DNA from: Bacteroidia bacterium
GTDB lineage: Bacteria; Bacteroidota; Bacteroidia; UKL13-3
DNA length: 64,000 nucleotides
Direction: 5' to 3'
Assembly (NCBI GenBank): GCA_023151275.1
Contig: JAKLJI010000005.1
Span: forward strand, 62,001 to 126,000
Position numbers and translations under genes: made by a program. Shown here piece by piece: positions 17,420 through 40,156 of this stretch (positions are counted from its first letter, which is position 1; the number at the start of each line of letters is the position of its first letter). The notes under the pieces are model-generated. The model saw only the letters and a program-made list of their open reading frames with translations, did not search any database and had not been told where the DNA came from.

Positions 17420-17568
17420 GGCTGAATGGATTATGCAACAAAAATGAAAGGAAGCCAAAAAACAAAAAACACCAGCACGACCAGCCGTAAAAAATGGCGC
17501 ATGAAACGGGAAAGAGGGGGAATGAACAATTGGCTTGTCGTCAAATTTAGAAAGGGATGAACTGTTGG

Positions 17569-17760
17569 GTTAGGGGTGGAAGCGGATACCACCTGCAGGG
17601 CAGCTGATTGCGGCTGTTTTGGCAGGGCGGCGACCCAAGAAGCCCGGCCTGCCAAATTACAGGCGCATTAGCTGACCAAGGGTGTAGCAGCGGACGACCC
17701 GACCCTTGCCGGAACGCATTTTGAATTCCTGAGGGAATTTGTTTGGCAAGGGGAACCCCC
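17569..17760. repeat. Structured intergenic repeat, copy 1
   Basis: The 373-base gap between the receptor and nifU-like genes holds no gene but one copy of an element also found at about 39.64-39.82 kb. Shared landmarks are AGCGGATACC, GCAGCTGATTG, the core GGCGACCCAAGAAGCCC, a second AGCGGACG, and GCATTTTGAATTCCTGA. Hairpin 1 pairs TTTGGCAGG (17618-17626) with CCTGCCAAA (17648-17656). Hairpin 2 pairs CCCTTGCC (17703-17710) with GGCAAGGG (17745-17752). In the other copy both stems have different sequences but still pair. The rest of the gap (17420-17568) shows nothing recognisable. Confidence 0.7.
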
Positions 17761-17792
17761 CAAAAAGAATTTGAATGGTGCCGGATTTGAAA

Positions 17793-38039: not shown

Positions 38040-38955
38040 AATTGGTGTAAGTGTTTGGTTCCATTTGCTTGTTGTGAATGCATGGTCGCAGCAAGTTTCT
38101 CGGGGATTTCAAGAAGCCGATTCCTTGTATGCGGCAGGTGCGTTTAAAGAAAGTCTGGTGAAATGCCGGGAGCTCTTAAAAACAGAAAAGCCCGAGGAGG
38201 AAATCAGGTTATTGATGGCCAAATGTTGGTTTTCCTTGAATTATCCTTTAGAACTTTTTGCCGAGCTAGAACAACTGAACCGGATCAATCCCTGCTATCC
38301 GGAAGCGCATGCATTGGCCGGACTTTACTTGTTTAAACAGAAAGAATACAAGCAAGCCCGCAAAAAGTATTACCTGGCCATTAACTGCTCGCCACAAACG
38401 GCAGAATACCATTTTGATGCGGGCATTGTTGAATCAAAGCTTTACCGTTGGAAAACTGCCATTGAGAATTTTGACCGAGCTATTCAACTGAAAAAGAATT
38501 ATGCCGAAGCATTTGAAGCCCGAGCTTATGCCCATAGCATGAGTAAGTCGTTTAAGCTCGCCATTCGCGATTACGACTCGGCTCTTTTTCATTCGCCTGG
38601 CAATCCGGATTTGTATGTGAAACGAGGCCTAAATATGATTAGTTTGGGGCAAAGTCGTGAAGCGGAACAGCTCTTTTCAAGAGCCATTCGTTTGGATTCA
38701 ACCCGAAAATCGGCTTGGTATTCCAGAGGAAGGGTAAGATTGGAACTGCGGCAATTCAACAATGCGATAGCGGATTTTAATCGGGTATTGGAACTGGATG
38801 CGGAAGATGAATTGGCCCTATTCTCGAAAGGCGTTTGTTTGCTTGAAATAAACAAGCGGGAAAATCTGGAGCAGGCATGTGATTGCTTTAAAAAAGCGGC
38901 AGAAAAAAATCTGGGGCAAGCCTGGGATTTTTTCAGGCAACATTGCACGAGGTAA
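38023..38955 (+). CDS. Secreted/periplasmic TPR protein
   Basis: A 310-residue protein from the ATG at 38023; an in-frame GTG at 37978 lies deep in the kinase gene and would mask the signal peptide. The signal peptide is MKLLLKIGVSVWFHLLVVNA, cut near WSQ. Six to seven tetratricopeptide repeats follow (for example AEYHFDAGIVESKLYRWKTA, then YAEAFEARAYAHSMSKSFK). It overlaps the TPR kinase by 17 bases, so it belongs to the same operon. It could be a periplasmic partner that binds the kinase's own TPR sensor. Specific role unknown. Confidence 0.82.
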   Translation: MKLLLKIGVSVWFHLLVVNAWSQQVSRGFQEADSLYAAGAFKESLVKCRELLKTEKPEEEIRLLMAKCWFSLNYPLELFAELEQLNRINPCYPEAHALAGLYLFKQKEYKQARKKYYLAINCSPQTAEYHFDAGIVESKLYRWKTAIENFDRAIQLKKNYAEAFEARAYAHSMSKSFKLAIRDYDSALFHSPGNPDLYVKRGLNMISLGQSREAEQLFSRAIRLDSTRKSAWYSRGRVRLELRQFNNAIADFNRVLELDAEDELALFSKGVCLLEINKRENLEQACDCFKKAAEKNLGQAWDFFRQHCTR

Positions 38956-39510
38956 GTTTTGCAATTAAAACGGTATGAAATTCTGAAGAATCCGGATTTG
39001 GAAAAGGAATTTCCAGCTTGTGCAAAACCACAAAACCAGTTTTGTTCAAAGCCTCCAGGATTTTTTGAATGGGATGGGGTAATTGAAGTAAACCCGCAAG
39101 CCATTTGTTCCGGTTTAAAAGCACTCAGGTTTGAATAGCCCTTATCAAAACTGAAATTGAGTATTCCTCCCTAACCAGACTTTTTGCCGAATCCAAAAAG
39201 AACATTTCGCATTCTTCCGAATTGAGGTAGGGAATGTAAAATCCCGCAAGTATTCCATAAAATGTGGATTTTAGCTCTCCCATTTTTTTGGGTCAAGAAT
39301 TCTGCATTCCGCCGTCGGATTATTTTTAGCCGCCAATTCTAAAGGGACAGGCGCATAATCTGTTGCCAGCAAATTAAAATAAGGGCGCCGGCGAAATAGA
39401 AATTGAGTAATATTTCCCGGGCCACAAGCTAGTTCAAGTATATGCGGTTTGGTTTGAGGAAAGGCCTCATAAAAAAGCGTGTAGGTGGACTTGTAAAAAT
39501 CCGGTTTCAT
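38933..39510 (-). pseudogene. Decayed SAM-dependent methyltransferase
   Basis: A class I methyltransferase broken by several frameshifts. The first frame (39510 to about 39274) holds the SAM-binding motif ILELACGPGNITQFL and LLATDYAP, then stops shortly after an A7 tract. A second frame continues with LKSTFYGILAGFYIPYLNSE and FFLDSAKSL. A third frame briefly gives FSFDKGYSNLSAFKPEQ. Another gives HPIQKILEALNKTGFVVLHK and ends in EFHTVLIAKL. Read together they describe one ordinary methyltransferase of about 190 residues. At least three frameshifts make a working protein unlikely. It is convergent with the TPR gene and its tail overlaps that gene's end. Confidence 0.82.
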
Positions 39511-39638
39511 GAATGTTTCCGGGAATAAATCTGCCTGGGAATTCCGGGTTTCAAAAGTTTCTTCGGAAGGAATCAGGCATGCAAGGAAAAGATTTGAAGT
39601 GCAAAATGAATTTCAGATTGGCGCCCCAGGCTTAGGGG

Positions 39639-39820
39639 GAGCAGCGGATACCCTGCAAGCTTGAGGCGGCTGATTGTTGGCTTGTAAAGGCGACCACAGG
39701 AAGCCCTTTACAAGCCTTACAAGCAGCCAGGTGAAAGCTTGGAGAGTAGGAGCGGATGCCCCGGCCTGTTGCCCAGATGCATTTTGGATTTCTGATTGCA
39801 TTCAATTGGCAACAGGCAAG
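39639..39820. repeat. Structured intergenic repeat, copy 2
   Basis: The same element as at 17.57-17.76 kb, in the same orientation. AGCGGATACC is at 39643-39652, GCGGCTGATTG follows, then the core GGCGACCACAGGAAGCCC, a second AGCGGATG and GCATTTTGGATTTCTGA. Hairpin 1 pairs GGCTTGTAAAGG (39679-39690) with CCTTTACAAGCC (39705-39716), a perfect 12-bp stem. Hairpin 2 pairs GCCTGTTGCC (39764-39773) with GGCAACAGGC (39808-39817). Both stems differ from copy 1 while pairing is kept. Bases 39511-39638, between the pseudogene and this element, show nothing recognisable. Confidence 0.7.
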
Positions 39821-39828
39821 CTCCAAAA

Positions 39829-39862
39829 ACAAGAAAGGCTATCGAAACCGACAGCCTTTCTT
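39829..39862 (-). terminator. Terminator of the small Cys/Lys-rich protein gene
   Basis: Arms AAGAAAGGCT and AGCCTTTCTT with a 12-base loop, seven bases past the stop of the gene at 39869-40156, followed on the minus strand by a T-rich stretch. Confidence 0.75.
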
Positions 39863-39868
39863 GATGAA

Positions 39869-40156
39869 CTATTGTTTGTTTTCTTCTTTTTTAGCGGGCT
39901 CTGCTTTAGCCTCAGATTTGTGGGCGCAGCAGGATTTTTTGCCGGACGAAGGAGCGCAAGATTTTGACTCTTTCTTATCGGCGCAATGTTTGTCGTCTTT
40001 CTTTTTTGACTTCTCTTCTTTAGCTGGTTTTTCTTCAGCAACTGCTTCGGTTTGAGCTGCCGGAGTAGTTGTGGCAGCAGCAGAAGCAGGAGCCTGAGCT
40101 TTAGCTCCAATTACCATAAAGGCGCAAAAAGCGGCTGATAATAGTACTTTTTTCAT
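39869..40156 (-). CDS. Small secreted Ala/Lys/Glu-rich protein with cysteine cluster
   Basis: A 95-residue protein. Residues 1-21 are a signal peptide (MKKVLLSAAFCAFMVIGAKA). An alanine/threonine-rich stretch and Glu/Lys-rich repeats (EEKPAKEEKSKKKDD) follow. A cluster of four cysteines and two histidines (HCADKKESKSCAPSSGKKSC, then CAH) lies near the end, suggesting metal binding, though no family is recognised. It has its own terminator and a TAATTTCG promoter-like element at 40182-40189. Reading in other frames also gives long open frames because of the repetitive lysine codons, but only this frame has a signal peptide. Function unknown; a periplasmic metal buffer is speculation. Confidence 0.65.
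   Translation of the reverse strand: MKKVLLSAAFCAFMVIGAKAQAPASAAATTTPAAQTEAVAEEKPAKEEKSKKKDDKHCADKKESKSCAPSSGKKSCCAHKSEAKAEPAKKEENKQ

Follow-up and report, generated by a model that had tools for sequence, protein, structure and literature searches.

What is the structured intergenic sequence that lies at two places 22 kb apart in the 64,000-nucleotide stretch of Bacteroidia DNA analysed here (hereafter called the window), and does it act as RNA or as DNA? A first-pass annotation of the window had described two hairpin stems that change between the copies yet remain paired, and had proposed selection on an RNA or single-stranded DNA structure, or a dispersed element. We characterized the element, its homologues and its genomic surroundings.

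Architecture and dispersal of the element

Both copies are full length, from the 5' strand of the closing helix P1 to a terminal CCCAAA. The GGCGACC...GAAGCCC signature has two exact occurrences in the window, compared with 0.00 expected, and the core pattern GGCGACC...GAAGCC(C) is found 42 times in the genome to which the window belongs (G000, 3.9 Mb), compared with 2 occurrences of a reversed control pattern. We built a covariance model of 197 positions and 47 pairs (R1) from 29 hand-trimmed copies. A search of G000 with this model, a check suggested together with the original description, yielded 109 copies of a ~197-nt element at E <= 4e-10, or one copy per 36 kb, which strongly supports a dispersed element. 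The features of the two window copies and of their surroundings are as follows.

17567-17764, plus strand: copy 1, complete from P1 to CCCAAA; R1 match of 142.4 bits, E 2.7e-35 (G000:C55:79567-79763)
17567-17571, plus strand: 5' strand of P1, GGGTT, pairing with AACCC at 17754-17758
17579-17586, plus strand: 5' side of the symmetric internal loop, GAAGCGGA; the central pairs (17-152 and 18-151 of alignment A3) covary, GC/AU and CG/UA
17622-17656, plus strand: apical stem-loop P3 with GGCGACC-nnn-GAAGCC (17629-17644), missing from the short Flavo-1 forms (see below)
17687-17694, plus strand: 3' side of the symmetric internal loop, GCAGCGGA
17703-17752, plus strand: P4 hairpin, CCCTTGCC...GGCAAGGG, whose 3' arm directly adjoins P1'
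17754-17764, plus strand: P1' strand AACCC and 3' tail CCCAAA
17793-18050, minus strand: NifU-like gene (Pfam NifU, 7.9e-23), its 3' end facing the 3' end of copy 1, the typical context
39629-39826, plus strand: copy 2, full length; R1 match of 153 bits, E 3.7e-38 (G000:C55:101629-101826)
39829-39863: terminator-like hairpin between copy 2 and the small open reading frame
39869-40156, minus strand: small open reading frame of 95 residues without Pfam family, its 3' end facing the 3' end of copy 2

The two stems first described, TTTGGCAGG/CCTGCCAAA and CCCTTGCC/GGCAAGGG (17703-17710/17745-17752), are present in copy 1, and both differ in copy 2 and still pair. The two-stem layout was nevertheless incomplete, as it missed two further helices, P1 (GGGTT/AACCC) and P1b. 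P1, of 5 bp, closes the element and is followed inwards by P1b and by a symmetric 8x8 internal loop (5'-GNAGYGGA / 5'-GNARCGRA), whose two central Watson-Crick pairs covary from C-G to U-A. The two AGCGGAY motifs of each copy, initially taken as a sign of internal duplication, are the facing sides of this single loop; because they face each other around two covarying Watson-Crick pairs, they do not represent a tandem duplication. Further in, P2 is of variable length, and P3 is tipped by the hairpin GGC-GACCnnnGGAA-GCC. P4 lies 3' of the core; among the 73 copies whose P4 measures 6 bp or more, its 3' strand runs into P1' without a gap in 50. All five P1 pairs are Watson-Crick in 77 of the 94 long copies, and four of these pairs show two-sided changes.

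The helices covary very strongly. When 85 copies (84 of G000 and one of G042, a genome of another family) are aligned to the model, 86.3% of the cells are paired, compared with 62.2% in shuffles and at most 44% when the partners are slid by 1-3 columns, an excess over the slid versions that is in part expected from an alignment fitted to the structure but whose size goes far beyond that. Changes on both sides of a pair affect 953 cells compared with 315 in shuffles, and no shuffle matched any observed value. Selection on a structure, as first proposed, is thus well founded.

The borders of the copies are abrupt. Pyrimidines occupy positions -1 and -2 (about 90%) and are followed by G, and the 3' side reads CCC and then ~9 A-rich nt, giving a logo of YY/G(C/G)...CCCAAA/A-rich, with slashes at the borders. 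No other sequence conservation was found in the 40 nt upstream of the copies taken together. In a subset of the G000 copies, the 22 nt upstream contain (A)ACGCCCC(T) or GAAACG, and CGCCC, which echoes the 3' end of the element itself, is present in the 5' flanks of 11 of 108 copies, compared with 0-1 elsewhere. Searches of phage and plasmid collections gave no match to the element, and IMG/VR gave one weak match. A genome-wide pattern scan remained near chance level, except for one true match in Bacteroidales (L307).

G000 also harbours a separate dispersed palindromic repeat of ~175 nt, AACCCGGAATACGCATTTG...CAAATGCGTAATCCGGGTT, often at most 250 nt from copies of the element, as in the flanks of C16:46326 (-250 to -72), C3:16745, C55:36525, C75:85181 and C33:159842.

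Relationship to the Flavo-1 motif

That no named element has this layout, as first stated, holds for the window copies, which lie below Rfam detection: neither matched any family, RF01705 included, even at E 10. It does not hold for their short homologues, which correspond to the Flavo-1 motif of Rfam (RF01705). Flavo-1, of unknown function, was described in 2010 (Weinberg 2010, PMC2864571). It is listed in Rfam as "sRNA", with a gathering score of 42 bits and a model of 76 positions that ends before P4 and P1'.

R1 matches were found in 23 of 58 genomes (G000 and 57 relatives); outside G000 they are mostly shorter, at 80-130 nt. Three sampled congeners harbour no copies, one genome from another family has 17 matches, G042 has one full-length GC-rich copy, and a Bacteroidales metagenome-assembled genome has one copy devoid of P4. 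When 18 loci from the R1 search of relatives were scanned against Rfam, 6 reached the Flavo-1 gathering score and 9 more matched below it. Conversely, R1 recovers Flavo-1 loci at 54-66 bits, with alignments over P1, P1b and both strands of the loop. About ten short-type copies in G000 itself are matched by both models, and short copies in G000 and in relatives reach the RF01705 gathering score, unlike those of the window.

Flavo-1 and the window element share a core made of P1, P1b, the symmetric AGCGGA-type internal loop and P2. The window copies differ by their length of ~197 nt, by a P2/P3 apical domain that is both long and conserved (GGCGACC-GAAGCC), and by a variable P4. Since the short homologues match both models, the element is, judging from these sequence comparisons, an expanded and diverged relative of Flavo-1. 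Strict membership of that family is not claimed here, as the window copies miss the Rfam threshold. These analyses link Flavo-1 to an enlarged form with more than 100 copies per genome, and define its architecture in full, with P1, P4 and the true borders.

Gene context and base-pair composition

The copies of G000 have a preferred position relative to genes. At 81 of 107 loci, the first gene met beyond the 3' end of the copy is encoded on the opposite strand (P = 9e-8, with codon-model gene calls). This gene ends at most 100 nt from the 3' end of the element at 68 of the 107 loci (median 32), compared with 9 for same-strand genes. The genes on the 5' side show no strand bias in the 107 loci. 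The element is not placed as a riboswitch or cis-regulatory leader would be, ahead of one recurring class of genes and in sense with them, and no common family was found downstream. At 38589-39570 of the window, a minus-strand gene resembling methyltransferases seems to be split, possibly by a frameshift; its SAM-binding motif ELACGPG, read by eye, falls outside the listed 38589-39104 open reading frame.

G-U pairs are normally tolerated in structured RNAs. At the 30 well-aligned pairs of the element, they represent 38 of 2391 standard pairs (1.6%), with 19 A-C cells; over all 47 pairs, there are 97 G-U and 109 A-C cells. The tRNAs of G000 contain 50 G-U among 667 pairs (7.5%; Fisher P = 4e-13 against the element), although this control is a single RNA family read with a different program. 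Such strict Watson-Crick pairing, as far as one control family can indicate, argues for selection or copying at the DNA level. Taken with the antisense placement at gene ends and a mobile-like distribution, the scarcity of G-U pairs tips the original choice between RNA and single-stranded DNA towards DNA.

The main alternative, in line with the Rfam classification of Flavo-1, is a family of structured, trans-acting small RNAs encoded at many paralogous loci. The strong conservation of the structure would agree with it, as would the conserved loop motifs, which are strand-specific, and the G-U count at the best-aligned pairs, slightly above that of A-C (38 versus 19). We consider it unlikely all the same, in view of the scarce G-U pairs, the three congeners without the element and the absence of any conserved signal beyond the YY dinucleotide in the 40 nt upstream. 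In the Flavobacterium psychrophilum transcriptome, moreover, Flavo-1 matches are indistinctly sense or antisense to transcribed regions, and many lie outside them (PMC9723704). The scarce G·U pairs, the antisense placement at gene ends and the border-linked variation described below are three grounds for doubting the sRNA label.

Recurrent cores, variable borders and candidate enzymes

Cores (nt 6-140) with 82-98% identity recur at unrelated loci; the P4 identity of such copies is 0.42-0.72, compared with 0.54 for random pairs. P1 also often differs between copies with near-identical cores, each P1 still pairing with its own P1', as in the pairs C17:22965 and C33:41235 (P1 GCAAA versus GCCTG) and C10:5612 and C11:547717. 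Insertion of the core into pre-existing empty hairpins was rejected, as no P4-type hairpin without a core was found in about 366 kb. The outer stems thus probably belong to the element itself, yet are made anew at each locus. More speculatively, renewal by an inverted copy of the target sequence would fit. The P1' strand of the C75 copy resembles part of the surrounding purine-rich DNA.

Comparisons of orthologous loci revealed variation at the 5' border. Between G011 and G022, the DNA is 97% identical throughout the element and a gene that by eye resembles dihydrolipoamide dehydrogenase; divergence begins exactly at nt 1 of the element and extends outwards, with ~7 kb in G011 that include a CusA/CzcA-like metal-efflux operon versus 136 bp in G022. 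G033 and G004 are 97.8% identical from an ftsK-like gene into the 3' part of the element. They differ in the 5' part of the element and in the next genes, a 382-residue gene in one genome versus a 242-residue gene and a RelE/HigB-like/XRE-like pair in the other (genes of this pair of genomes were named by eye, not by database search). The other two pairs are collinear through the element; in one, collinearity stops 217 bp to the 5' side of the element. No break was found on the 3' side in these four pairs, all from draft genomes. For the C15 copy of G011, an empty site was sought in G022, but the flanks are absent there. More generally, border exchange was seen, but neither a same-species genome nor the orthologous sites compared yielded a clean empty site, and we saw no target-site duplication at the copies.

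The reading that we favour, with confidence evenly balanced against doubt, is that of a non-autonomous DNA element, mobile or serving in recombination, that works as a folded single strand. In this form it would be mobilised, or used as a recombination site, by a trans-acting enzyme. The enzyme would recognise the fold, i.e. the P1/P4 coaxial stem, the symmetric GNA loop and the apical GACC-GGAA hairpin. Insertion would prefer gene ends, on the side of the A-tract or terminator, and crossover would take place at the 5' border, where variable cargo would collect. The patchy distribution, with three congeners devoid of copies and members of other families harbouring them, supports mobility. The lack of an empty site, of a target-site duplication and of a partner enzyme that fits the distribution speaks against it, as does the collinearity of two of the four loci. 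Should border exchange be confirmed, the elements would mark the sites of gene gain and loss in Bacteroidota genomes. A bolder proposal, which we regard as rather a long shot, is that Flavo-1 and the expanded form, folded from a single strand, serve as the recombination sites of a gene-capture system of Bacteroidota that is as yet undescribed. The core would then be mobile, the P1/P4 arms would be rewritten to each target, and foreign cargo such as efflux operons and toxin-antitoxin pairs would be deposited at the 5' border behind resident genes.

When the neighbouring genes in G000 were clustered, the recurrent family with the most loci (6) consisted of tyrosine recombinases, most of them integron-integrase-like. 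Four of the five integron-integrase-like loci are within ~1 kb of a copy (L185:1886-3031, L159:2127-3170, L280 and L279), whose 5' side points towards the integrase start. With one copy per 36 kb, this adjacency is unlikely by chance. The sites may be a hot spot, since they have purine-rich tracts in common and two of their cores share 95% identity. The integrase by C75 is complete; the others are broken or at contig ends, and some adjoin purine-rich tandem repeats.

The copies might accordingly be integron-like recombination sites, analogous to attC or attI and served by this IntI-like recombinase. The best NCBIfam match of the latter is the integron integrase TIGR02249, at 217.9 bits, which is under the family cut-off of 265. 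The location of copies directly behind gene ends and the variable 5'-side cargo, with its RelE/HigB-like and XRE-like pair named by eye, would also suit such a system. However, only one of 23 integrase loci from relatives has an adjoining copy, and no integrase homologue was found at E <= 1e-25 in the Flavo-1-bearing genomes G017, G019 and G022. There are no arrays, P1 is freely variable, and no RYYYAAC or GTTRRRY boxes are present at the borders. We therefore rejected the IntI-like recombinase as partner despite its striking adjacency in G000, and hold integron-like sites to be quite improbable. In a relative (G005), ~144-nt repeats with CTAACG...GTTAGCTG ends, attC-like by eye, adjoin an integrase related to that of C75 (L283:89-3394) and may form a chromosomal integron array. 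A DUF805 RNA of Rfam (81 bits) is located near the G006 integrase homologue (L268:2666-2734 in G006:C79).

Other enzymes fare no better. The RAYT-like (Y1) transposase suggested at the outset as a possible partner was rejected, as its presence tracks neither the element nor its copy number, and Y1 genes are absent from the copy-bearing G006, G017, G019, G022, G043 and G048. The one adjoining Y1 gene, RAYT-like and ~190 bp from a Flavo-1 copy (L097:860-1420 in G047), has its own short GC-rich inverted repeats of the AACCCCNNNGGGGTT type, REP-like by eye. Reverse transcriptases were discarded likewise, being absent from G006, G007, G013, G019, G048 and others.

Very unlikely, in our judgement, is a 3'-end element of the neighbouring gene, whose complement strand would be transcribed in the 3' untranslated region and act as mRNA stabiliser or terminator. 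The proximity of opposite-strand gene ends at 68 of 107 loci is what such an element would produce, but the wobble pairs show no strand polarity in favour of the complement. Terminator-like hairpins, furthermore, often intervene between gene and element (17-19 of 107 loci versus 10 at a control position), as they do at copy 2, and the congeners without the element have an ordinary terminator behind nifU, with nothing alignable to an empty site. Least probable is palindrome-driven mutation, in which template switching during replication would keep functionless arms paired: it would account for Watson-Crick-only arms and the fast turnover of P4, but leaves unexplained why the mismatched internal loop, the apical loop and the borders are conserved, as well as the orientation and the dispersal.

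The favoured single-stranded DNA element can be set beside three known systems. Group IIC introns insert at transcription terminators with a short pairing to the target, which resembles what we propose here; in contrast with them, the window copies match no group II family of Rfam, catalytic core and domain V included, and several carriers lack a reverse transcriptase. REP/REPIN sequences with their RAYT are likewise dispersed, non-coding, intergenic and folded as single strands. The element is several times longer (197 or 80-130 nt) and multi-helix, not a palindrome of 20-40 nt with a 5' GTAG/GGAG. As for the attC sites of integrons, they differ in that the copies of the element are single and dispersed, form no arrays, have no R''/R' boxes and do not require an integrase, but they share with it a variable sequence on a conserved fold, a position behind gene ends and variable neighbours.
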